Assembly: GCA_020721965.1 (NCBI GenBank)
Contig: DYLS01000018.1
Coordinates: forward strand, 1 to 53,283
Origin: Blastopirellula marina
GTDB taxonomy: Bacteria; Planctomycetota; Planctomycetia; Pirellulales; Thermoguttaceae
DNA: 53,283 nt
Reading direction: 5' to 3'
Position 1 is the first letter of the stretch. Every line of letters begins with the position of its first letter. The notes below the pieces were generated by a model. It saw only the letters and a list, made by a program, of their open reading frames with translations, was not told the DNA's origin and ran no database searches. This document shows positions 2,643 to 45,000 of the stretch, piece after piece. A program made the translations under genes and the position numbers.

Positions 2643-3944
2643 ATGCAGCGAAAAATCTTTTTCGTCGACGATGAGCAGCGCGTCGTGGATGGGTTGCGGC
2701 GCATGTTGCGCTCCATGCGCAACGAGTGGGATATGCAGTTCTTCGAGTCCGGACCTGCCGCGCTGGAGGCCATGACCGACGTTCAGCCGGACATCGTGAT
2801 TTCGGACATGCGGATGCCCGGCAGGGATGGCGCACAGTTCCTGGAACAGCTCCGTCGTCGCTGGCCGGCAACGATTCGGCTCATACTTTCCGGCCAATGC
2901 GAGCGAGCCGCGGTTCTAGATGCCGCGGGGCCAGCCCATCAATTCCTCTCCAAGCCTTGCAACGCGGAGGAACTCCGACGAACGATTTGCCGCATTTTCG
3001 AAATCCGTGATCAACTTGCCAATGCAGAGATTCGCACGATTGTCTCGCAAGTTACGGCCCTGCCCATCAGCCGGTACCGTAGGCAACAGATGGCGGAGCT
3101 TCTCACGCAGCCTAAGATTCCCGAGGCCACTCTGATCGAGTTGATCCATGCCGATGTGGCTCTTTTGAGCAAGTGTCTCCAGTTGATAACCGGCGGATTC
3201 CTCGGCAGCCAGCAAGAGCTGATCCCGGTTGCGGATATGGTCCGGATGATCGGCGCGGATTCCCTCCGCAGTCTGATTTTAGAGCGTAAGACCCTCCCCA
3301 GCATGCCCAATGATCCCCTGATCATGAGCTTGGATGCGCTTTTCCATAAGGTTTCCAGGGTAACGGGCGAGGTAGCCAGGCAAATCTTGGCGGAAGAAAA
3401 GGCGTCCGAACAGGCTCAACTGGAGGCAGAATTCGGCGGTCGCTTGGCTCGTATCGGCGTGGCCCTGCTAGGTTTGATCGATCCCTTCAAGTATCTTCAC
3501 GTGTGGAGAATAGCAGCGGCTCAAAAGGTTGCTCGAACCGAGCTCGAGATGCGTATCTACGGAGTGCACCGCGCGAATGTGGGGGCTTATCTGCTCGGGC
3601 TTTGGGGTGTGCCCTCGCGACTCGTTGATGTGATACTGAACGCGCCCTGGCCCGGCAGGTACAACGAAGCCGAAATGTCCACCGTGACGGCCGTGCACGC
3701 AGCCTGCGCCCTTGTCGATCAAGCTTTGTTTCACGAGACCGAGCCAAGCTATCGGCTGGATTTGGATCATCTGCGACGCATCGGAATGGAGGGGCGGCTT
3801 GTCCGCTGGCGGGAATTGGCCCAGACCATGGCCCAGTCCGTATCAATCACCCCGGCGGAAACGCTTTGGGGCACGGAAAACGTCCCAACGGTACCCGGAG
3901 AATCTGCCACGAACGTGATGGTGCTACAGGAGATGCCCTCATGA
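2643..3944 (+). CDS. Response regulator with REC and HDOD output domain
   Basis: 433 residues. The N-terminal receiver domain (about 1-125) has the acidic pair Asp9-Asp10, the phospho-acceptor Asp55 in VISDMRMPG, Ser83 in the switch position and Lys104 in FLSKPC. The rest, from about 140, resembles an HDOD domain (TALPISRYRRQQ, then an alpha-helical region with IGADSLRSLIL and IGVALLGLIDP). The usual HD catalytic pair is not seen, as is common for HDOD. ATG 2643 is preferred over GTG 2628 because GGGAGGG (2630-2636) lies at the right distance and the receiver begins directly after ATG 2643. It follows the kinase by 20 bases and overlaps the next gene by four bases (ATGA), so translation is probably coupled. 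The output target is unknown. Confidence 0.88.
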   Translation: MQRKIFFVDDEQRVVDGLRRMLRSMRNEWDMQFFESGPAALEAMTDVQPDIVISDMRMPGRDGAQFLEQLRRRWPATIRLILSGQCERAAVLDAAGPAHQFLSKPCNAEELRRTICRIFEIRDQLANAEIRTIVSQVTALPISRYRRQQMAELLTQPKIPEATLIELIHADVALLSKCLQLITGGFLGSQQELIPVADMVRMIGADSLRSLILERKTLPSMPNDPLIMSLDALFHKVSRVTGEVARQILAEEKASEQAQLEAEFGGRLARIGVALLGLIDPFKYLHVWRIAAAQKVARTELEMRIYGVHRANVGAYLLGLWGVPSRLVDVILNAPWPGRYNEAEMSTVTAVHAACALVDQALFHETEPSYRLDLDHLRRIGMEGRLVRWRELAQTMAQSVSITPAETLWGTENVPTVPGESATNVMVLQEMPS

Positions 3945-26373: not shown

Positions 26374-27090
26374 CGTGCACCCCTCTTCTGGCTGCGACTC
26401 TTGTTTTCACATGCTATCCGCGGGAGATACTCCGAGCCTGGTCCTTGCAAAACCGGCCCGGCTTTCAAACAGCACCTAGTTCAGACTCTGCCGATTGTTA
26501 TGCACTCGCGGCAAACGCAAACAATCAATTTAGCTCAAGCCTGCCGGATTGAGTATCCCGCACAGGATAAAGCAGGGGCTTTCCGATCACAAGGAAGCGG
26601 AGGGTCGGCGGCGAATGCCGGAGAACACCACTATCATGGGTACAATAATGCCACCATATTTGATGGATTTCATGTGTCTCCATCACGTCCGGGAGATAAC
26701 GACGTGGCAAATCCCGCATCTTCGCCATTTTCCAAACTGCCAGTAAATTCGCGGAACTCGACACAAATGTTATGCGTCTAAACGCTGAGGCGGAGGAAAT
26801 TGCGCGCCGTGATTACCAAGATTCATTGTGATCGCACGGACAAGGCCCAGGACGACGAGCCGCGACGGCTCCGGCAACGGCGGCCACTGCCGCTTACAAT
26901 CGATGCTTATTGGACTAACGAATCCGGACAAACTAGGCAATATGCGCGGTTTGGCGTTGATTTTTCGCGGATGCCTGATTTCAATGGTTACTAACGGACT
27001 GTTCGCCTCCGTCAATGGCCGTGGGGGCGCTTTCATCTTAGCGTCAATTGGCAATTCTGCCGTTCGTTCTTGCCTGAGGGGACACACTCG
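26374..27090. other. Intergenic region between pheS and the giant gene
   Basis: 717 bases between two genes transcribed away from each other, so it should carry both promoters. Short open frames here, for example 26401-26781, have no recognisable features. GAGGGG at 27075-27080 serves ATG 27091. I could not place -35/-10 pairs with confidence and see none of the dispersed repeats. Confidence 0.5.
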
Positions 27091-30000
27091 ATGAGGTTTT
27101 GGGATTCGATTCGGCATCTTTCTTCCTTCGGCAACTCCTCGCGTCCCAAGAAGGGTTCGAATGGGAGCGTGGCCCGCGGTCGCAAACCGAAATCCCGACG
27201 ACATCGCGGGTTACGGCTGGAGAAATTTGAGGACCGCGTCCTACTCAGCGTGGCTCCCACCAACCCGGATCGGGTGTTCGAGGACACGCTTCAACGGGCC
27301 ATCGAGGCGGCTGCCGATTTGAATCAATATTCCGTTCAGCAGCTCCAAGCCAGCCATCAATGGGTGGTGGGGCTTGCGGACGGACTCAATCCGCAGACTG
27401 TGGCCTCACTGGTTGGTGGCGAGCAACTTGCCGTGGCAAGCGGCATCAAGGGCGCGTACGTTTTTCAATTCCCGGCGCAAATCTCGTGGGAGACCATCGT
27501 CTCTCGGCTGGATCAAGTCGACGGCGTTCAATTCCGCTTTCCGCTCGCCCCGCAGCAGATCGATCGCAAGTTCATCCCCAACGATCCGCTCTTCACGCAG
27601 CAATGGCACTTGCTGAATACAGGACAGTCCGGGGGCACACTCGGCCAAGATGTCCGCGTCACCGGCGTCTGGGACAACTATCAAGGCGATGGAGTCGTCA
27701 TCGGCATCGTGGATGATGGAATCGAGACGACTCATCCCGATTTGGTGGCCAACTATCGCGCCGATTTGAGTTATGATTATTTTGCGGGGGATGCAAACCC
27801 TCAAGCAGAGGTAGGGGACTTCCACGGTACTTCCGTGGCTGGTGTGGCTGCTGCCGCTGGTAACAACAACACGGGTGTCACCGGCGCCGCGTTCGACGCG
27901 CAATTGGCGGCCTTGCGCCTCATCGGCGGTTCCATAAGCGACTTGCAAATTTCCCAGGCGATTGGGCATCGGACCGACGCCATCCAAATTTACAACAATA
28001 GCTGGGGGCCACCGGACGCCGGCGGCGGGTTGCCTTTCTCGATCTTGTCAGGCCCCGGCCCCTTGAGCCTGGCCGCCTTGCAGCAGGGCGTTACGACCGG
28101 TCGTGGCGGTTTGGGATCGATCTACGTCTGGGCCGCCGGTAATGGCCTCCAGGGCAACGACAATTCCAACTATGACGGCTGGGCTAACTCCCGTTACACC
28201 ATCGCTGTCTCCGCCGTCGACCATGACGGGCGTCAGGCATGGTATTCCGAGCCGGGAACCAACATTCTTGTCAGCGCCTATTCCAACGGCCTCGTGTCGG
28301 GAATCTACACGACCGACCGTTTGGGAGAGGAGGGTTACAACGCCACCGGCACGGCCGACGGTGATCCCCTGCCGGACATCGACTACACGTCCCAATTTGG
28401 CGGGACATCCTCTGCTGCCCCGTTGGTGTCGGGAATCATCGCCCTGATGCTTCAGGCCAACCCGAACCTAACCTATCGCGATGTGCAGTACATCTTGACC
28501 GAAACCGCCCGGATGAACGATCCCGCCGATCCCGGCTGGACCACGAACGCCGCCGGGTTTCACGTGAATCACAAATATGGTTTCGGCGTGGTCGATGCCG
28601 CCGCGGCTGTAGCCGCTGCTCAGAGTTGGAAGAATGTAGGCCAGGAGCTGGTGCTCGACTCCGGCAACATGACCGAGGGTCGGGTCATCCCGGACAACAA
28701 TCCTGCGGGGATCTCTTCGGTAGTCAGCATGGCCCCCACCATCAACCGGGTGGAATGGGCCGAGGTCACCGTCGATATTACCCATCAAAGCCCGGGAGAC
28801 TTGGAGGTCGTTCTCGTATCTCCCTCGGGAACGCAGTCCGTCCTGGCGGAACCCCACGTCCACAATCCGTCCGACAACGGGATTCGCTGGACCTTTACGA
28901 CCGCCAGGAACTGGGGTGAGTCTTCGGGCGGAGACTGGACCCTGATCGTCCGCGATCGGGTCTCCGGCACCATCGGTCAGTTGAATTCCTGGCGATTGGC
29001 CGTTTATGGGCAGCAAATTCCCAGCGTACCGCCGGACCTCGTGGCCGTGATACCAAATGAGGGTAGTTTGATCGAGGAGGGGACCGAGCTGAACGTCGCG
29101 CCACGCGAGCTGGTCCTGCGATTCAATGAGGGTCAGCAGCTCAACCCGAATACGCTGGGTGCCATTCAGTTCGTGAGGGCGGGTGGCGATGATTCGTTCG
29201 CCGAGGGCAATGAGGTCGCAGTGCCGATCGGTTATATCGGCATCGGCGACAAGCCAAACGAAGTGATCGTGCGCTTCGCGGAGAACCTCCCTGACGACAA
29301 GTACCATTTGATCATCAAGGGGACAGGCGCCAATCCGCTCACGAATATGGACTCGCCGCCTGTGCCCTTCCGTTTCAATCCCGATCTGGGTGTGGGTCAA
29401 GACCTGACGCTGGAATTCGATGTCAACATTGGTCCCCAGATTCTCGCCGTCGTCCCGCAGCCGGTTTATCGCGGCGACCTCCGCGTTACCGTGCCGGCCG
29501 GCAATCAGATCGCGGATGGGCAAACTTTCGTCGTCGGTGACGGGACACTCCAGGTCACTTTCGAATTCGAAAACCAAGACTTGAATAATGGCGTTCAGAC
29601 CGGCCGCATAGCCGTGCCGTTCCGAAGCACAGACTCGGCTGCGACTGTCACCTCCAACGTCGCGGCGGCTATCATCGGGCAGGGGCTGAACCTCTCGGTG
29701 ACCGCGGACCCGCTCAACGCCCTGATTACCCTGAGCGGCGCGGCGGCAGCCTTCGATCCGCGAACCAGCAACCTCCAGGTGCGCAGCCTCGAACAGTTGC
29801 GCAATATCATCGAAGTCTATTTCAGCAACGATCGCCTGGATAGTGACGCGGCGACCAAGCCGGACTTCTATCAATTGATCTTTACGCAAGAAACCGCGCG
29901 GCCTGACGACGACACGGTGGTTCTACCTGTTTCCGTGACCTACGATCCCGCTGCGAATAAGGTCACCCTGGATTTCGGCCAAGACTTGGCGAATTTGGGG

Positions 30001-33000
30001 ACCGGCGCGGCTCGACTCCGAGTCGGAAGCCGTTATCAAACGGTCCAGACCTCGAATATGAACGAAGGCGCGGATGCGGGTTCTTCGTTCTATGATTCTT
30101 TGCTTGTCTCGAATCTTGGCACTGGCGGGACGCCACAAAGGGTCATCATTTCGGGGGCCATCATCCCGCAGACCTACAACTTGGAATGGCCGGGCGCCAT
30201 CGACGAACCTGGACACCGAGATCTCCCGAACTATGACAGCATCCTGATTGAGGATCACTACTTAACGGGTGAGTCCTCACCGGACGGTTCGACCGACATT
30301 CCCCGCATACCGTTCTATTTCCCAACTGGCAGTTTCAACCTCATCACCGAGGCACAAAAGCAGCGCACGCGTGAAATCTTCGCCATTTATGGCCAGTATT
30401 TGGGGGTCCAGTTCTATGAGAGCGAGTCGGGTGGACTCGCTATCATCACCGGCGACTTGGCGATGATGGGGCTGCAATCGGCGCCGGGCGGTATGGGCGG
30501 CGTGGCCGGTGGCGGCGTTGCCGTCATGGACTTCGCCGAAGACTGGGGGGCCAGCGAATTCGGTGGCGGTTGGTTCCAGGTCGCCATGCACGAGATCGGA
30601 CACCTGCTGGGCTACGGTCACAGCTACGATCTGTCCCCATTCGTCATCATGGGAAGTTCCGAGGATGCCACCACGGCAACAGGCGATTTTGAACCTGTCT
30701 TCCCCGGCATGGCCGACATCGTTCACGGCCGTCACATGTACCGGCCGGACAGCATGGACGTGGACATGTACCGCTTCGAACTGCAAGAGGGCGGCGTGAT
30801 TAACGCCGAGGTTCTAGCCGAGCGGATGGCCAACTCGAGTATGCTGGATGCCACGATCACGCTCTATCGGCAGGTCGATACCCTTCGCAAATACGTCGTC
30901 ATCGAAAATGGTGTACCGGTCGACAAAGAATACGTCGAGACCACTTACGAGGTCGTGGCGCGAAACGGCGACTTCTATAGCGAAGACTCCGCGCTCGATG
31001 TCTATCTACCGGCCGGTACGTATTTCATCGGCGTCAGCGCCTCGGGAAATACGCAATACGATCCGAGCATTGACGACTCTGGCATCGGTGGAGTGACACA
31101 GGGTGCTTACAAGCTGCGACTGAACTTCACCCCGGGCGGCGTCGATCCGAACAATCCGACGACCTTCCGCGATCCGAATCCCGCCAACCCGGCGATGCTC
31201 ATCGACTCGACCGGTGTGTATCTCGATGGCGATTTGGACGGCGTTCCCGGCGGCGAGTACAACTTCTGGTTCAACGTTCAGTCGGAAACCAACACCCTCT
31301 TCGTGGACAAATCGTCCTTCAACACCTCGCCGGATGGTTCGCTCAGCAAGCCCTTCCGGACCATCTCGGGGGCCTTTGCGGCCGCTCAACCCAACCAGAT
31401 CGTGCGGATTGTGGGCAACAATTTCGCCAATGACGATCCGAATACGCCCGACACGCTGCGCGACAACGTCCCGTACGAAATTGGACGGCGCCTGCTGGAC
31501 AATGCCCCCTTGGCGGACGGTGTCCGTATGGAAGTGCCGCAAGGCGTGACTGTCATGGTCGATGCCGGGGCCATGATCAAGCTCTTCCGCTCCAACATCA
31601 CCGTCGGCAGCCTGGCGGAAGGTATTGACCGCAGCGGCGGCGCGCTTCAGGTACTGGGCATCCCGGGGTTGCCTGTGTACTTCACCTCGTATTACGACGA
31701 ATCGCTCGGCCGTGATCCAGAGCCGACCAACAACACGACTCCAGCTTCCGGCGACTGGGGTGGCATCGTATTCCGCAACGATCTCGACTATCAGTACATT
31801 CGGAACTACGATCCCGCCTCGGGCCTGTCGCCACGAGACGTGCTGGAGGATCAGGGCATCTTCCTCAATTACATCAGCAACGCCGATATCCGCTATGGCG
31901 GTGGAGAAGTCATCGTAAACGGCGTGCGGTCGATCTACAACCCGATTCACATGGTCGAGGCGCGTCCCACGATCGTTTTCAATCGTGTTACGCGCAGCGC
32001 TGATGCCGCCATGTCCGGGGACCCCAACAGCTTCGCCGACACCAAGTTCGAAAGCTGGGATCCCGCTCAACCGTACACCGTGGAATACGACCGCGTCGGT
32101 CCGGTCATCCACGGCAACTATGTCGTGGACAACACGATCAACGGTCTCTACGTCCGTATCAAGACTCCGGCGGGGGGCGCCACGAAGAAGCTGACGACCT
32201 TCGCACGCTGGGACGACTTGGACATCGTGCACTATGTTCCCGAGAACTTGGCTATTTTGGGCACGCCTGGCGGGGCCATCCAGCATGCGTCCACTGCCCC
32301 GGCCGCGACCCTGGCCGACGAGTTTCAGATTCGGGTCTCCCCGGCAAGTGTGGAATTGGACGGCCAGTACTTCGCGTTATTCGACGGCCGGACCCGCGTC
32401 GTCTTCGAGTTCGATAACGGCGACGGCATCGTTTCGGGTCGGGTCGCGGTGCCGTTCAGTTTGTCGGATTCCGCGGATCAGGTTGCGGCATCGCTGGCCG
32501 CGGCTATCAATGCGGCGGCGGTGTCCCGCAGTCTGGAAGTAGTCGCCACCGCGGCCGGCGGCAGCGTGGATCTCACGCAGCGCGGGGCGCAGTTGAAGGT
32601 CGAGGGGCTCGGAAACCTAGAATCCCGCATCGATGCCCGTTTGCAGGTAGACCCCGGCCTGATCGTCAAGTTGCAGGGTAGCCGGATCGAGACCGAGATC
32701 GGCGCGCAACTGATTGCCGAGGGCCGTCCGGGCTTCGCAGAGACCGTGCCAGGCTATAAGGTGGTCTTCACCTCCATCCTCGACAATCGTTTCGGGGCGG
32801 GGGGGACCTTCAACACGGCGCAAAACACGAGCGGCCAGCAGCCCAATAAAGGCGATTGGGGCGGCATCGGATTCGCTCCGCTCTCGGAAGGGAGTATCGA
32901 TCAGGCGATCATCGCCTACGCCGGTGGACAGACCGCCATCGAGGGCGGGTTCGCCGGCTTCGATCCCGTCGAAATCCGCCAAGCCCACGTTCGCGTAGCC

Positions 33001-36000
33001 AATACGCGGTTCGAGCATAACGGCGCGAACAATGCGGGTGATAGGAACGGTCGCGGCTTTATCACTCCGGCTACGATCTATGTGCGGGGTGCTCAGCCCG
33101 TCATCGTCAACAATCGTTTCGTGGATAACGACGGGCACATCGTCTCCGCGGACATCAATGCGCTGAACGCTTGGGAGGTGCCAGACTGGGGGCGAAGCAC
33201 CGGGGAAATCGATCGCTTCTCGCAATTCGACGCCAACCACGGGCCGTTGGTCGCGCTCAACCGCATGACCGACAACCAATTCAACGCCATGGAAGTTCGC
33301 AAATGGGAGCTTACAACCCAGGGCATTTGGGATGATACAGACATCGTCCACGCGGTGTACGGCGAGATCGTGGTCGGCAATTATCACCACGAAGGTGGCC
33401 TGCGATTGCAGAGTTCCCCGACGCAAAGCCTGGTGATCAAGCTGTGGGGGCAAGATGCGGGCTTCACGGCCTCCGGTCGGCCGTTGGAGTATGACGATCG
33501 CATCGGGGGGATCATCCATGTGGTGGGCCAGCCCGGTTATCCCGTGGTCCTCACCTCACTGGCCGACGACACGGTCGGAGCCGGGCTCGATACCTTTGGC
33601 AACCCCCAGTACGACAGCAACGGTGACGGCACGAGTAGCGCCGCGCCGGGACAGTGGCGGAGCGTGCGATTCGACCGCTACAGTCACGATCGCAATCTGG
33701 CGACGATCATCGAGCGCGAAACGGCCACCAGTAGCGTCATCGATTTGAATGCCTACCCGCAATCCGCTCAATCCATCGGTCAACTGGCACCGAACGAAAA
33801 AGCGGGGGACGACAACCTCCGTTTGGGATTCGATATCCACGGGTCCGTGCGTTACGACGAACGGACCGATTCGGACGTGTACAGCTTCGACGCCGCAGCC
33901 GGCACCGAAATCTGGATCGACGTTGACCGCACCACGTTCGCCCTGGACAGCATCATCGAGTTGATCGACGCGGACGGCAACGTCCTGGCCCGCAGCGACA
34001 ATTCGCTGACCGAGACCCCGCAAGGATCCACGACCACGCTCGCGTACCCGATGAATCGTGATCCTTGGATCCGCTCGACCTCCAGTGGCGCCGGCGAGCA
34101 GGGCGACTTCTACAGCATCAACCCGCGCGATGCGGGCATGCGGTTGGTTCTGCCTGGCCCGGCGGGTGAAGTCCACACCTATTACGTCCGCGTGCGAAGC
34201 GTCATCGCTATTTCGGAAATCCCGGCCGGCAATGCGGTTGCGGACGGGGCACAGTTCATCGTCTCCGACGACTTCCAGAGCATCGTCTTCGAGTTCGATA
34301 AGGACGGAACGCTCAGCGATCCCTCCGCGGTCTCCGTCTCGATCAACGATGCCATGAGCGCCGATCAGGTGGCCAACGCAATCACGGCCGCCATCCAGGC
34401 GCAGAAGACGGCTCGGAACTTCGAACTCTCGGCTCGATACGCCAACGGCAAGATTTTCCTGGATGGCGTCCACGCGCGGTTCAATCCACTGACTTCGCCG
34501 TTACGCTTGTTGGCCAACACGGCCGGCAACTACCAAGTGCAAATCCGGCTCCGCGAAATGCAGGAAGTGGCGGGATCGACGGTCAAGTACGCCGATGTCC
34601 GCTATGCCACCAACGGCATCGAAGTGCTGGGCTTCCCGCAGCATCACCCGCTGTTGGGCGAATCCGCCGAGACCACGGCCAACAACGACGCTTTCGGCAA
34701 TGCGCAACCGCTTGGCAATTTGCTCCGGATGGATCGCAACGCCATCTCCGTAGCCGGCTACTTGAGCGGCCGGACGGATGTCGATTGGTACAGCTTCCAG
34801 GTCGACCTTCAGGGCATCCAATCCATTGGCGGCCTAAATGACTTGGGGAGCATCTTTTCTACCATCTTCGACATCGACTACGCGGATGGTATGGGGCGGC
34901 CAGACCTGGCCATCTGGGTCTTCGACAGCCAGGGACGACTGATCCTCCGCAGCAATGACTCCAATATCGCCGACGATATGGCCTTGGTGGTGGGGAACGC
35001 CATCGAGGATTTGAACCGTGGGTCGGTGTGGCCTCGTGACCCGTACATCGGCCCGGCGTACCTGCCGGAAGGCACCAATACTACCTATTACGTGGCCGTG
35101 ACTTCCGCCCTGGCGACGCCCCAGGTTTTGTCTTCTGTGATCGGCGGTACGTGGAGCGCGGATTCCACCGCCAACCCCCTGGTCCGTATCGAGCCGGTCA
35201 ACTCCGTGGCGCGGATCGTGGAAGAGCACATCGATCGGGGTGCCGCATCCGGCGTGGCTGCCGAACAGAGGCTCAGCCTCGTGCCCGACGAGTTCAAGCT
35301 GGGCGACGTAACCTTTTATACCCTCACCGGGAGCGACCTATTCACGGTCGATCCATTCACGGGCCAGAGCGAAACCGACGTGACCGATTGGTCGGATTCC
35401 GATCTGCCCGGTAGCCCGAATATCTCCTACCACGACATCGCCATGCGGAACGATGGGCGACTGATGACCGTCAGCCAAGGCCCGGGCCCGGACTTCAATC
35501 CCCACTATCGCGAGTTCGATACCGGCAACGCGAATAATCTCCTCGTGGATGTCGACACCGGAATCAACATCATTCGGCGGGATCCGAACAATCTAAACAA
35601 TCTGCAAAACGATCCGTTTAACAGCCTGCGCGTAGAGGCCATGGTGCACAACCCGGCCAATACGGGTGATCTGGGGCGGCAGGTGATGATCGTAGGGAAC
35701 GTGCCCAATCCCGATCTGGGAACTAATTCAGGCATCACCTCTGGAAACAACTTGGTGTGGATTTTGTCCCCCTCGGGCACGGCCATTAACCACCCGAAGA
35801 TCAACGATGGGACATTTGCAAGTGGTGATCGCCTCTTTAGCAACATCGTTCCAGTTGGGCAGTTGTTCACCGCACCTACACTGATTGCCAATCCTGCGTC
35901 GCAAACCGAGCCGATCTATTCATTCGGAAATGTGGTGCAACCTCGCGATTTTGCGGATGGCGACTGGTTTGCGGTGACCAGCGCCGGCGGGACGACAAAG

Positions 36001-39000
36001 GAGTTCGAATTCGATCTGGGTCTCGACGTCCACATGGATCCCCAGGGTGCGGCTGCCTTCCGCGATGGCCAAACATTTAGCCTTCGCAATGTCAACAACG
36101 GAGTGACCTACACCTTCGAGTTTGATAGCGGGCCGGTAATTGTCCTGCCGGCATCCGCGACAGCCTCACTGGACGGTGTAAGGGTTAGCGTCTCCGGAAC
36201 GGCTCCCGGCGGTGGAAGTGCGACCGTCACCTTCGAATTCGACAATGACAACAATTTGACCAATAGCGCGAACGTCCGCGTCGGCTTCAATAATGGTGAC
36301 TCTGGTGCCGTCCTGGCCAATGCACTAGTCAGTGCCATCAACGCCCAGGGCGCGTTTACGGTCGTGGCAATCGCGAACAACAACCGCGTGACGTTGGTCA
36401 ACGACTCCACGGCGGCCGCCCCGGTTTCCAGCGACCCCAGCCAGGTAGCCATTGAAGGCGCGCACGGAGTGGGTTTCGGACGTGTCCCGGTGTCATTCGA
36501 AGAAAACTGGACATCGCTGCAGTTGGGACAACAAATCGAGACGATCGTCGATGCCAGCCAAGTAGGCGTGTTCCCCGCGGGTGATCGCATCGATCCGAGT
36601 TATGCCTTGCGCACTACGACGACATCCAACCCCAATAGCCCTGGCGATCGTCTCACGTTCTCGAACGCGGATTCCTTCAGCAGTACGGCACCGCTGACTC
36701 TGATAGCAGGGACATGGGGTGTCTCCGCGGGGCGTGAACGCGTTGTGATCGGCGCCGGCTTCACGCCGCAGGAGGTTGCCCAAGCGATGGCGCAGGCCAT
36801 CAATAGTGCGGCGTATGGCGTCACCGCTAACGTGGCTGGGGCTACGGTCGCCTTGACCGGCGTGAATACGACCAATCCCGTAGATATCCAAAACGCTCCC
36901 CAGCTCGATTTCGCTGGCGCGGGGGCTGGCGGTTCCATCACCGGATTGGCTTACGTCGGCAACACGCTTTACGCCGTGTCGGACTCCGGCGGACTGTATT
37001 TCATCGACAACATCTCGGCATACGCACAGGGAGGCTCATGGGGCTTCTGGCCGGTGGATCCTCAAAGTGGCCCGCGATACTTCACCCGCGTGCCTGGTGC
37101 GGGGCCGCAACTGCACTACATCGGGCAGGTCGTCAACCCAGCGACGGGCCAACCCATCCACTTCTCCGGCCTGGCCGTAGGTCCCCAGAATGCAGAGGCA
37201 GGCAAGTATGCCCAGACGCTATTCGCCTCCGATACCACAGGGAATGTGTACGCCTTTACCACGACGGGTACCTTGCTTGGCGTCTTCCAGGACGGCGCAA
37301 CCAGCATCAATCCAGACTCGGTGGGCAATATTTACGGCATCGACTTCTCCCCCGTCGACTACAATCTGTGGCACGGGACCACTCGGCGCCGTGACGATCA
37401 GGGACATGGCCTTTATCAGACCTACGACGATACACGTGTGCCGGCAGAGGGGTACAATTCCTTGTTCGAGGGAAATGCGAGCTACTACTTTGGCTTGGAC
37501 GATCCCAACGACGGCGATCCCAATCAATCGCAACCGGGCGCGGTCAATTTCACGACCGATCAGAATAGCGACGGTAGCCGTCTGCTCACCTACGATCTTC
37601 CCGGCGGCGCTCACGGCAGCTTGACCAGCGGCACCTTCAGCCTGGCCGGGTACAGTGCGGACGACAAGCCTACCATGTACTTCAATTACTTCGCGGAAAC
37701 AGAAGACAGCAACGATTTCGATGGTGCCCGGGTCTTCATCTCCAACGACGGAGCAAATTGGACGCTATTGGCCACCAACACGGACCTCAACGATGCGAAT
37801 CTTATCGCTCCGAGTCGCGATCAAGGTCCGTACGGCGGGTACATCCGAGAAGTCATCGACCTGGGAGGAAATTGGCGGCAGGCTCGGCTGGACCTGAGCC
37901 AATTTGCTGGTTTGGACAACCTGCGCGTCCGTTTCGATTTCAGCACGGCCAGCGACATGGACGTCGGCAATGTTACGACGGCTGGCGAGTATCTCACCGC
38001 CCCTGCCGCCGCCAAGATGCACGACGGCGACACCTTTGTCGTCGATGGCACCACGTTTGAAATCGACATGGGCTACGCTCTGTGGCTCCCCAACGCGGCC
38101 GGTGTACGGATCGCGGATGGTGAAACCATCAGCCTTGGCGACGGCTCCACCACCCAGACGTTGGAATTCGACAAAGACGGCACCGTTCTGCCCGGCAACG
38201 TGGCCGTGCCCATCAACGACGCGATGACCGCCAGGCAAGTGGCGGACGCTGTGGCCGGGGTTGTCAATGGTCTGGGAATGAACCTCAGCGCCTTCGTTCC
38301 CGATGACGCCTTCTTCGCCGGCGGCAATGGTAACCGGGTCTTTCTGATCGGCGCCCAGTCGGTCACGGTGGGCGCGGCCCAAATCCTGTTAGAAGGGAGT
38401 GCCCCCGGGCAGGTCACCGCGGGCAATGTACCGGTGTACCTGCGGCCGGATCTGACGCAACGGGAGGTCTCCCTCCTCATCACGGATGCTGTGAATCGCC
38501 AATTTCGCGGTACGCCGAACGCGATCACCGTTCCAAACAACGCCACCGCTGCGAATCTGGATCAAACGGCGGTAACCATCACGACCCTTGACGCTCGCAA
38601 TGTGCCAACTTACAGCTTGTTGGCTTTCACGACATCGCTCCCTTGGCCGATGATAGTCGATCCCAACAGTCTGCCCGTCACCATCCCGCCGCAAATTCGC
38701 GCCGAACACGCGGTTCTCGTAGGCTTGCAGGGCGCAACCACACCGCAAGCCATCGCAAGCCGGATCGCGAATGCCTTGCTTTTGTTGAACACGAGCGCTG
38801 GGCTGCAAATCTCGGCGACGACGGTAAATCAAACCGTGCAGCTCGCCGGGCCGCAAGCCGCCTTGGACGTCATCCTGGCCGTACTGCTGAACAGCCCGCT
38901 TAAGGCCTCCGACCTCAACCAGACCACGATCAAGCTGGATGAGCTGCTCGATCCCAACGAGCAGACCGAACCGCTGATGCGCGTCTTTGGTCATTCTGTA

Positions 39001-42000
39001 GCGGACCCTGGCCCGCTCGCGTGGAGTGCCGAATTGCAGGGGGATTCCACATCGAAAAACTATGGCATCACAGCCCGTGGCAACAATCGTTTCTACGACT
39101 TCCGTCGCGGACAGAAAAACAATTTCGAGGGCTTCTACATCGACGACATTATCGTCGGTTTCGCCGAGCGAGGTGAGATGATCACCAACGCACCCGCTGG
39201 GAATAGCGCATTCGATTTCATGCGGGCGTCTCTCATCGACGAACCCGTAGTGGTCACCGGCAGCTATCAGCTTGAAATTCGCCGCGGCGATGAGTTCGGC
39301 ACGCTGGTCCTCGATCCCTACCGTGTCGTCCCACTCGCGGCGCAAGCCAATACCAATGACCGCTGGACGACGGGCTACACCCTCCAGTTCCCTGCGGCCT
39401 CGAATATAGGGCACGGGGACCGATTCTGGATCGACGACGGTGTGCATCAACAAACCTTCGTGTTCCTGGATAGCGCGTTGGGAACGAGCGTGCCTTTGAC
39501 GCCCCCCTTGAACGGCAGTGAGCTCCCCGTTTACTTCGAGGCGGGGTGGAACGCCGGGGAAATCGCGCATGCAGTGGCGGCAGCCGTCAATGCCGCGCGC
39601 GACGCTGGGCGGCTACTCGTCTCCGCGGCTTCCATCTCCACCAGCGAGCGCGTCGACCTCTGGGGCGTGACTTTCGTCGGAGGCAATATCGGTGGATTCT
39701 CGCCTCAACCGCTGGCGCATACCTCGTACGGCATCGTAGAAGGAACCGGCCTGCCGAATGAGACGGTGAAGTTTTCGAATTTCGCAGGCAACCCGGTGAT
39801 CGGCGACCGGAACGCATTCCGCGAGAAGGGCCAGATCATCGTGGATAACACCTCCGTGTTCCGTGCGTCGGAGTACGGAATCCGCGTCGAGCCGGCCGCG
39901 CGTGAACCCGGTTCCAGCGCGCCGCACCCGGCATCCGGCCGCACGATGAACGCCCCCAATCAATTGGTGGCAGGAGTTACACTCCAAAACAACTTGGTCG
40001 CATTCAATACCCAAGGCGGTATCCGGATCAGCGGCGAAGTGGGACAGCCCACCGGCGCCATCCCATTCGTTCGCGCCGTAAACAATACCGTTTACGGGGG
40101 TGTATCGCCTACCGGAGTGGGTATCGAGGTTGTGAACAGCGCCGGCCCCACGATTCTTAACAACGTGGTGGCCAATCTCAATACCGGCATTCTGGTCGAT
40201 GCCAGCTCCAATCCCAACACGGTATTGGGTGGGAATGCCTACCAGGGCAACAACGTCAACGTGCAGGGCCGCGGTCTCGGCAGCTTCGACCGGGTATTGG
40301 CTGCCGGCGCTCCGTTGTTCGTCGATCCGGCCAACTACAACTTCATACCGGATCATGGCTCCGAGATCATCGACAGCTCGATCGATGCGTTGCAAGAGCG
40401 ATTCGGATACTACAACTCGGTACTGCAACCGGTGGGTATCGCGGCATCGCCGATCATCGCGCCGGAGACGGACTTGTACGGCCAATTGCGGAAGGACGAT
40501 CCGGCCGTCAACCCGCCGCCGGGTGGCGGACTCAGCGTTTTCAAGGATCGCGGCGCCGTGGATCGTGTGGACTTCCGCGGCCCGACCAGCGGTTTGATCG
40601 AACCGCTGGACAATGATGGAGCGGGCGTGGATCGCGACCCCCGCCTGAACGACGTGTTTGTCGCCGGGCAGCGAGTCTTCCGTTTCGCGGTCAAGCTGTC
40701 GGATACGGACGGTGTGGGAATCAATGACCGGACGGTGACGCCCGATACCGTCTCCCTCTACCGCGGCAACGTCCTACTGGAGGAGGGGAAGGACTACTTC
40801 TTCCAATACCAGCCGGTGGACGACATCATCTATTTGGTGCCCGCCCCGGGGGTCTGGTCGATCGGGCACATCTACAACATCGTGTTGGACAATCAGGCGA
40901 TCCGAGACCTGGCCAATAACCCGCTGCAAGCCAATCGCGGCAACGGCAGGACGTCTTTCACGGTCAATGTCGCGGGCATCGACTTCGGCGACGCGCCAGA
41001 TGGGCCGTATCCCACAACGCTGAAAAACAACGGTGCCAGCCACATCATCGTCCCCGATCTTTACCTCGGGAGTGGGGTGAGCAGCGAGGCAGATGCCCGC
41101 ACCAATGCCACGGCGACCGGCGATACCTTCGACGACGGCATCCTGTTCGACGCCGGATTGCTGATCGGCGGTGGAACGCAGATTCGCGCCATCGCTTCGG
41201 CCGAGGGCTACCTCGATGCCTGGATCGACCTGAACATCGACGGCGATTGGGATGACGCGGGCGAAAAGGTCTTCGATTCCGTCTTGGTTCAGCCGGGCGA
41301 GAACCTGTTGACGATGACTCTCCCGGCGGGCTTGACTCCCGGTCAAACGTTCGCTCGCTTCCGCTTGAGCAGTAGCGGCGGCTTGGCGTCCACCGGCGTG
41401 GCGCAGGATGGCGAGGTGGAAGACTATCTCGTCGAGATGGTGCCCTTCCACGAAGACTTTGGGGACGCACCCGATTCCTACGGCACGTCACGCGGTGGAG
41501 ACGGGGCAAGACACCGCTTGGGTTCCGGCTTGTACTTGGGAGACGCGGTGGACGCCGATCTGAACGGCAAGCCGACCGTCTTGGCCGACGGCGATGATAG
41601 GACCGGCATCGACGATGAAGATGGCGTGTTGTTCTTGGACGCGCTCGTGCCCAGTAGTCCCGTCGAGGTTGTGGTCACCGTGTCTCAGCCCAACGCTTAC
41701 CTGCAAGGCTGGGTCGACTTCAATCGTGACGGGGACTTCACGGACGTCGGCGAGCAAGTCCTCGTGGATCAATTGTTGCCCACGGCCGGTACGCACAACG
41801 TGTTCTTCACGGTTCCGAGCGATGCCCTCTTGGGGACCACGTATAGCCGATTCCGGATCAGCACTCAGGCCGGCATCGGTCCCACAGGCTCCGCCATCGA
41901 CGGCGAGGTCGAGGATTACCGGACGGCCGTTGTGGACGCCCCTCTCGATTTCGGGGACGCGCCCGCGCCGTATCCCACCCTGGCCGCAGACGGCGGCGCC

Positions 42001-45000
42001 CATCACCGCGTGGTCCGCGGCTTCCACCTTGGCCAGGCCGCCGATTACGAGCTGGACGGGCAACCCAACGCCACGGCCACGGGCGACGATGATGCCGATC
42101 AGCCGGACGAGGATGGCGTGACCTTCAACACGCCGTTGCTGACGGGCGAGTTGGCAACCGTCACGGTCAACGCCTCGCAATCCGGTGGTTTCCTCAACGC
42201 CTGGATCGACTTTAATGCAGACGGGGATTGGAATGACCCCGGCGAGCAGGTCTTCGCGGATAAACCGCTTGTGGCAGGCGACAATGTGCTGCAATTCCGT
42301 GTCCCGCGGGAACTGGTGTCCACGGATACGTTTGCCCGATTCCGTTTCAGCCACACCCCAGGCCTGCTGCCGTACACGCCTTCGGGGTCGTCCGTCCTCC
42401 CCGATGGGGAAGTCGAGGACTACTTGGTCCGGGTGATCGCGGGGACATCCACGATCAGCGGCTACAAATTCAACGATCTCAACGCGAACGGCATCTGGGA
42501 CCACCAGCCCAGCGATCAAATCCCGACTGTAACCATTTTGCCGCCAGGGGCAGGCACGATCGTCATCCCCGCTGGTGACGAGATGGTCAGCGGCGCCACA
42601 CCGTTGGGATTCGATTTCGAGTTCTTCGGCAAAGCCTACAACCAGATTTACGTCTCCACGAACGGCATCGTCACGTTTGCCAATCCGGTGAGCGCCTTCT
42701 CGGCCTCCGGGTTCCCGCAAGGAGAGCCGATGCTGGCGCCGTTCTGGGCGGATGTCGATACTCGAGGTGTCGGGCAGATTCGGATGCAGCAGGGTACAAG
42801 CTCCCGCGGCAACTCTGTCGTCCAAATCGACTGGATCAATGTCGGCTATTACAACCAGCACAACGACAAGCGGAACACGTTCTCGCTGTACATCGAGGAC
42901 GATCCCGGCGGCGACATCGTGGCCTTCTATTACCACAACATGGAGTGGACGACGGGCGACGGTTTCGGGGTCAATGGTTTCGGGTCGCCTGGAGCCCAGA
43001 TCGGATACGACGCCGGCGACGGCATCAACTATCTGAGCGTCGCCAGGCCCGCCACTTCAGCAGACCTCACGGACTTGCTCGCTCAGCGGCAATATGCCTT
43101 CCGCTTCGACCCCAACACAGGACGGCCGTTTGGCGTGGAACCTGGCCTGCCGGGCGTCCAGGTCTATGTGGACTTGAATAACAACGGTAGCCTCGATCCG
43201 TTTGAACCGGTCGACGTCACCCAATTGGATGACCCATCCACGCCCACGGTGGACGAAACGGGTTTTTATCAGTTCACGGGACTGTTTGCCGGGTCTTATA
43301 CGGTCCGCGAAATCGTCCCCAATGACTGGATGCAGACCTATCCTACCACGGGCGTGGTACTACCCGACGGACAGACGCGCCATTTGCGTCTGCCGACGGG
43401 GGCGTCCATCACGGATGGGCAGACGTTCTCCATCTCCAACGGCACCACTCTCGTCACCTTCGAGTTTGACGCCAACAGCACCGTTACCGCGGGAAATCGG
43501 CGGGTGCCCTTCAACTCCACGGATACGGCAACGGTCGTGGCGGCGTCCGTCATGAACGCGATCAACGCCGTGGCCGGCTTCGGTATCACGGCAACAGCCG
43601 AGGCCGACGTCGTCCATCTGGCTGGCACAACCGTGGTCTTCGACCCGCTCACCAGCCCCGTCGTGGACACCACCACGCGAAGCAACAGCGATGGTTCCTA
43701 CAGCGTCACGCTGGCGACGGACGAGGACCTTACCGATGTGAACTTCGGCAATTACAAACTGGCAAACGTTGTGATCGATGACGTGGCCGTGGCCGAGGGG
43801 AACAGCGGGCGGACCCGAGTGGCCGTCACGGTGGAAGTCTCCGACTCGTTCGGCGCGCCCATCGCGTTCCAATATCAAACCGCGGATGGCACAGCGACGG
43901 TCCCCGACAACGACTACCTCCCGGCCTCCGGACAGTTCGTCTTCACGCCGCAGGGTATTCCCACACCCACCTGGAAAACGGAACTGCTGACGCTCAATTC
44001 GGTCAACGATTACGACTTCAGTGTCTGGCAAGACCGGGTGGTCTGGGAGACGTTCGACGGGCAGGATTGGGAGGTCTATCTCTTCGACGGCAATGCCACA
44101 CGGCGATTGACCAACAACACCACCGATGATCGCTTCGCGGCGATCCATGGCCGGTATGTCGTTTGGTCGGGCTTCGATGGCAACGACTATGAGATCTATC
44201 TCTACGACATCGACACCGACACGACTCGTAAACTCACCGACAATGATTTCGACGACAAGGATCCGCAAACCTCGGATGAGTTGATTGCTTGGTGGGGCAC
44301 GCCCAGCGACACACAACAGATATTCGCCTACGACATCGCGGGCGGTGGCGATCCTATCAACATTTCAAACAACGCCTTCGACAACTACTTGCCAGTGGTG
44401 TCCGGTCGCAACGTGGCCTGGTATGCCTTCGACGGCTTCGACCATGAAATTTACGTCAATGCCTACGGGACGACGCGCCGCGTGACGAACAACACGTTGG
44501 ACGATCGCTTCCCGCGAATCGACGGCAACAACGTCGTCTGGCAGCAGCACGACGGCGACGATTGGGAGATCGCGCTGTACGACATCGCCACGAGCACCAC
44601 GACTTTGCTTACCTCCAACTCGCGGGATGACTCGCACCCGGACATCTCCGGCAACAATGTGGTCTGGGAAGGCGACGATGGCGTGGATCTCGAGATTTAC
44701 TTCATCAATCTGAATCTCGGAACGCCGTCGCTGCGCAAGGTAAGCGACAATTCCGTCCCGGACGAGCTGCCGCGCGTTCACGGCGACCAATTGGTATGGC
44801 ACTCGTTTGTCAACGGCAATTGGGAGGTATATCACACTGATTTGAGCACTGTCGGAATCCCGCGGAATATCTCCAACAACGCGGGCTACGACTGGTATCC
44901 GGAGATCAGTGACGAACTGGCCGTCTGGCGCCGATTCGAAGGTGGAAACTACGAAATCGTCGTCGCGCGGCAGCAGCCCGCAACGGCCAAGGCCACGATC

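Follow-up and report, generated by a model that had tools for sequence, protein, structure and literature searches.

Some 20% of multidomain proteins contain a domain that is interrupted by another one (PMC13114784). Two lines of published work bear on the particular case described here: a seven-stranded beta-sandwich with a helix is common to phage sheath and nozzle proteins, FliD and flagellin, according to a phage study of 2025 (PMC12846349), and Flagellin_IN is the commonest domain of the hypervariable regions of flagellin (PMC5595980). We report a module of about 100 residues, recurring in a giant open reading frame (ORF) on the planctomycete contig DYLS01000018.1 (assembly GCA_020721965.1), which is distantly related to the flagellin hook-IN and phage tail-sheath lateral domains, shares their fold and is inserted into loops of unrelated beta-domains. 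The stretch analysed, positions 1 to 53,283 of the contig on the forward strand, is referred to as the window; all coordinates are positions within it. Taken together, that the module is an autonomous domain of this kinship, lodged in the loops of unrelated hosts, has in our judgement a probability of about 0.9.

The giant ORF begins with a planctomycete N-terminal motif, LEKFEDRVLLS (27211-27249), and Pfam recognizes in it an S8 subtilase, a P-domain, a matrixin-like M10 domain, PPC, four GEVED domains, NIDO and Calx-beta, accompanied by beta-helices and a sub-threshold SdrD_B-like domain. The closest named relatives of the host region come from Thermogutta metagenome-assembled genomes (90% and 77% identical); the protein is called here a Thermogutta surface protein. 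The original prediction, made by reading this DNA, had counted about seven related segments; seven clear copies do lie near the places it gave, in a single open frame, and the count was slightly low, as a divergent but full eighth copy and several partial copies are also present (Table 1). Profiles built from six copies each recovered every omitted copy at 19-58 bits (independent E-value ≤4e-8), whereas the full seven-copy profile reached at most 4 bits in 50 shuffles of the giant protein, and the seven segments are therefore homologous. Ahead of copy 4 lie two half-modules (ORF residues ~2960-3031, positions ~35950-36165) that consist of the N-terminal DGxxF..FEFD hairpin only; comparable half-modules occur in other genera. 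Beyond the giant ORF, a profile search found no copy in the window's own assembly.

Three of the copies had been said to part a recognizable host domain, and each does so. Copy 3 separates TYYVRVRS from GNYQVQIRL, the final strand of the PPC domain. Copy 7 parts WMQTYP.. from DGSYSVTL..FGNYK in the SdrD_B-like domain (PF17210, 23.3 bits against a cut-off of 29.7, profile positions 6-78 of 112), whose unsplit orthologues align across the module gap, and copy 2 divides a beta-helix between VHYVPENLAI and VDPGLIVKLQG, an unsplit cousin of which is found at 33337-33450. In a model of the PPC domain together with its module (mean predicted local distance difference test, pLDDT, 82), residues 1-262 align with the collagen-binding/PPC domain 1nqj over the full 96 residues of the latter (Z 10.0, root-mean-square deviation 2.2) and match the PPC domain of a Bacillus collagenase, 5sv5 (Z 9.3), and the inserted residues 145-251 align independently with the tail sheath 8kee (Z 8.5) and with FliD (Z 6.8). 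These alignments argue for one PPC domain that is built from both flanks and from which the module juts out, so that in the one host modelled the flanking parts form a single domain, as anticipated.

Orthologous giant proteins were drawn from the family and from the phylum, the phylum being searched with the part of the host that separates site 2 from site 3. Flank profiles placed each of the sites in as many as 103 proteins, and the contents were counted on a non-redundant set. The Ig-like hairpin of site 1 holds the module in 12 proteins and an unrelated domain in 4, and is empty in 52. The beta-helix turn of site 2 carries the module in 15, an FN3-like domain in 33 (single in 23, double in 9, triple in 1) and another domain in 1, and is empty in 37. 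At site 3, the PPC hairpin, 13 proteins have the module and 69 an empty loop, which closes seamlessly and reads TYYVRVRSQDGASSGGYQLQIRLR; a divergent module-like insert occurs in one relative, G116. The SdrD_B-like hairpin of site 7 contains one module in 9 proteins, two in 2 and something else in 1, and its empty form, present in 6, reads WIQTYPNASIVLPDGSHGNNDGSYSVFVSEGEVVPNVTFGNYK. Across the phylum, site 6 is mostly filled; sites 4 and 5, assessable in near relatives only, are almost always filled. At least one empty counterpart was found for 192 of 299 assessable modules, a figure inflated by tandem arrays, and four further loops that stand empty in the window are occupied in relatives (Table 1). 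Homologues thus differ in where they bear the module, in line with the original prediction: because the same loops are empty in relatives at sites 1, 2, 3 and 7, and because the modelled PPC domain closes around its insert, we conclude that the module is a loop insertion.

The module is not the only occupant of these loops. The FN3-like domain of site 2, of ~115 residues (AGTYxYRVTFVD..RRIYRS), stands singly, doubly or triply in L144, L094, L130, L127, L140 and L100; a consensus constructed from it has no Pfam match at cut-off. A second cassette (GGTFTLTFNGQTTGPI..AAEIQTALEAL..GAGNVEVTGG), of which 27 copies were seen in 11 of the proteins examined, fills site 1 in L100, L109, L125 and L148 and site 2 in L142. 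Site 7 in G019/L091 holds a different insert of 128 residues (NDVEVIFVDDVSSGAETAVYND..) with no Pfam match. The use of one loop by several domain families suggests that the loop, rather than the insert, is the constant. In some planctomycetes one contig encodes a pair of giant paralogues, both with arrays of the module (L100/L124, L114/L125 and L102/L148).

The fold of the module was modelled by AlphaFold with 82 aligned copies, and in the predicted structure four strands are followed by a helix and three further strands (pLDDT 95.5; predicted template modelling score 0.89). By this model the segments form one fold, as had been proposed, and the module is predicted to be a small, autonomously folding beta-sandwich with one helix. 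Foldseek alone returned no PDB match at E ≤0.001, either for this model or for that of PPC plus module, and the fold assignment is based on the second look provided by the aligner VIA-align and on sequence links. The highest Z scores fall to phage tail-sheath lateral domains (8.5-10.9; 9cba 10.9, 8kee 9.8, 9khy 8.7), followed by Pseudomonas flagellin (4nx9, 8.3), FliD (6iwy, 7.3; 5fhy, 6.8), T7 gp12 (7.1) and T4 gp11 (6.0). A Z near 8 for the flagellar fold is modest, yet many flagellar and phage entries concur, and among the matches in BFVD are proteins of the phage baseplate and tail (best E 2.8e-7, TMq 0.79).

Sequence comparisons lead to the same relatives. At E ≤1 the Flagellin_IN profile (PF07196) picks out 11 copies among the 82 related ones, the best of them at 1.2e-6, the phrog_165 tail-sheath profile matches the module (E 8.2e-6), and a module sequence profile finds FliD in the PDB (E 0.0023). 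The closest bridge in sequence from the module to flagella is the flagellar hook protein FlgE of another planctomycete (L163, 955 residues); it carries the module at residues 437-513 (44.5 bits), between its D1 and D2 domains and outside both, with a BLASTP E of 5e-6 to copy 7 of the window. This FlgE comes from the genome family f25, in which the module also occurs, as a single copy each, in L160 and L161, kelch-repeat proteins of ~1,800 residues whose N-terminus is lipoprotein-like. An NCBIfam search with the module gave scattered weak matches only, and tblastn with its consensus found no match in phage and plasmid records. Since PF07196 matches neither the giant ORF nor the copy that heads the module alignment, we do not file the module as a member of Flagellin_IN; the suggested resemblance to flagellin hook-IN motifs holds as a distant relationship, as attested by fold, profile, FliD and FlgE alike.

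Most copies have been where they are for a long time. The nearest relative of a module nearly always occupies the same site in a different species (9 of 10 at site 1, 13 of 14 at site 2, 10 of 13 at site 3, 47 of 48 at site 6 and 10 of 13 at site 7), which points to old insertions followed by vertical descent. On a host tree of 86 proteins the site contents need at the fewest 8, 11 and 5 changes at sites 1, 2 and 3, respectively, and the approximately unbiased test rejects the grouping of all filled proteins into one clade (p 1e-37 for site 1, 0.0033 for site 3). Within the genus, modules are 61.6% identical as compared with 70.9% for their flanks (p 5e-5). A separate insertion at site 3 in G001, G013 and G040, where the nearest copies are those of site 6, is possible, and its scores are too low for a claim.

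In our reading the module has, over long evolutionary time, entered the PPC, SdrD_B-like and Ig-like hairpins and the beta-helix turn of a giant secreted protein, probably through domain shuffling or illegitimate recombination of the ordinary kind. As the two ends of the module adjoin, the host closes around it and bears it as a side-arm without lengthening of the chain; an autonomous domain placed in a loop thus preserves the path of the backbone while adding to its side, and two copies in one loop make a longer arm. An inserted copy is then inherited vertically, evolves faster than its host, and can become doubled or cleanly lost, with some of the same loops taken by other domain families.

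Several other explanations must be set against insertion. The modules might be ordinary rod domains, in tandem or interspersed, flanked by chance look-alikes of split hosts, and main-chain tandem arrays of the module do exist in L099, L107 and L143; empty orthologous loops of the kind seen at site 3, and a PPC domain modelled as one from its two halves, render this most improbable. Deletion in place of insertion, from ancestral loops that have mostly lost their modules, carries more weight and is still improbable. It is favoured by the occupancy of site 6 in most of the phylum, the second copy at that site being cleanly absent in the window genome and present in two genomes of the same genus (G087, G088) as well as in other genera (G005, G006, G026, G027), and by site-1 modules of G005, G085 and Thermogutta that look orthologous though nearer lineages are empty. 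What speaks for insertion is that site 3 is empty in 69 of 82 assessed proteins and filled in one part of the tree only, that the solved PPC domains aligned here have no module, and that in other lineages the loops of sites 1 and 2 are occupied by unrelated domains. Some observations do weigh against insertion as a general account: gain and loss are not always separable, and several patterns at sites 1 and 6 may be loss; copies 4 and 5 have poorly characterized hosts and could be fixed host parts, since almost no empty homologue was found; and host closure rests on one modelled host, PPC, in whose model the low-pLDDT stretches 100-112 and 267-277 are uncertain.

It had further been proposed that the module spreads by insertion. 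Insertion into loops and an old evolutionary spread stand, whereas neither recent nor DNA-level mobility has left a sign. A genetic cassette that copies the module between loops at present, be it a DNA element or a retrohoming-like process, would accord with the many sites, the several proteins and the presence of two modules in tandem at site 7 of G005 and G006; it is hardly credible in view of a DNA identity of only 47-58% among the seven window copies, of a GC content resembling that of the host gene, and of the mere 15 of 333 copies whose nearest relative lies in the same protein. The junctions have no long direct repeats and no mobile element, and composition and repeats are unremarkable; such short direct repeats as occur belong either to the conserved motif of the modules themselves or to the GEVED repeats. 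The module is not currently jumping; its copies are inherited vertically, site by site, with occasional loss.

As regards function, the role of the module's relatives on flagella and phage tails leads us to think that the inserts might be exposed surface decoration, for binding, shielding or recognition, projecting sideways from an extracellular fibre, for which we would offer slightly less than even odds. More tentative is the idea that giant surface proteins possess dedicated acceptor slots, which would exchange unrelated small domains, the flagellum/phage-tail-type decoration domain among them, and so alter the sideways display with the backbone unchanged. That these slots evolved for the swapping of adhesive domains, giving a changeable repertoire of ligands, we consider rather unlikely: three unrelated families at site 2 and two at site 1, each at the same position, and the faster evolution of modules than flanks are what it would lead one to expect, but tolerant surface loops could neutrally accept any domain, and exchange appears slow.

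Table 1. Features of the giant ORF in the window, in order of position
Feature	Positions	Strand	Core profile match	Remarks
Giant ORF	27070..46962	+		6630 aa as listed from TTG; ATG at 27091 likelier start
Module copy 1 (site 1)	29470..29784	+	29497-29754	In hairpin VVPQPV..R / RNIIEVYF of Ig-like (Big_5-like) domain
Slot empty in window (NFWF..TLFVDK)	31249..31311	+		Module in about ten relatives
Slot empty in window (PFRTISGA..QIVRIVGNN)	31351..31422	+		Filled in L105, L131, L132, L135, L142, L148
Slot empty in window (VRIVGNNFAND..YEIG)	31399..31491	+		Filled in G001, G020, G021, G022, G026, G027
Module copy 2 (site 2)	32311..32610	+	32344-32592	In beta-helix turn; VHYVPENLAI..GTPGG before, RLQVDPGLIVKLQG after
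PPC host, first part	33766..34203	+		Ends TYYVRVRS (34177-34200); PF04151 26.7 bits, cut-off 25.9
Module copy 3 (site 3)	34204..34506	+	34225-34482	In last hairpin of PPC domain
PPC host, last strand GNYQVQIRL	34525..34551	+		By alignment to empty relatives and model
Module copy 4	36118..36435	+	36157-36405	Profile match; two half-modules upstream
Eighth, divergent full copy	36586..36897	+		40 bits with deep profile (82 copies); partial with shallow profile
Module copy 5	38059..38391	+	38098-38364	Profile match
Partial/degenerate copy immediately behind copy 5	38359..38580	+		25 bits, iterated profile
Partial/degenerate copy	38674..38865	+		27 bits, iterated profile
Module copy 6 (site 6, NDRxxxx..P)	39361..39678	+	39394-39675	Most widely conserved site of all
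Slot empty in window (VWSIGHIYNI..NNPLQANR)	40846..40941	+		Filled in L099, L128, L143
SdrD_B-like host, first part (WMQTYP..)	43159..43371	+		PF17210 match below cut-off
Module copy 7 (site 7)	43372..43665	+	43396-43641	In last hairpin of SdrD_B-like domain; 43357-43680 modelled alone
SdrD_B-like host, last part (DGSYSVTLATDEDLTDVNFGNYK)	43690..43758	+		By ORF translation and unsplit orthologues

No report of the module in planctomycete proteins was found in the open-licence literature. It represents a large family of domains, as yet without a name, in giant planctomycete proteins, and links this family to the domains that decorate flagella and phage tails; its sites offer a rare natural series of domain insertion, with the same loops empty, singly filled, doubly filled or replaced across a phylum. 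The slots themselves are ready-made positions, tested by evolution, for the insertion of domains into beta-scaffolds.

Compared with the described systems, the module resembles Flagellin hook IN (PF07196) in its fold, in a helix with an AINA-like motif and in its place within a surface-exposed insert of a host; it differs in that the window's copies carry the DGxxF..FEFD hairpin, fail the Pfam profile and reside in a giant protease/beta-helix (S8/PPC) protein that is not flagellar. The tail-sheath lateral domains (phrog_165; PhiTE, Mu, Milano) supply the best matches among solved folds as well as a match in sequence, whereas the giant ORF has no sheath core and represents another protein, organism and assembly. 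The planctomycete FlgE has the same module, in a single copy and in a flagellar protein. With domain insertion architectures in general, the Thermogutta surface protein shares the interruption of one domain by another; unlike these, it has one and the same module in several of its own domains that are unrelated to one another, and single loops hold different domain families according to species.

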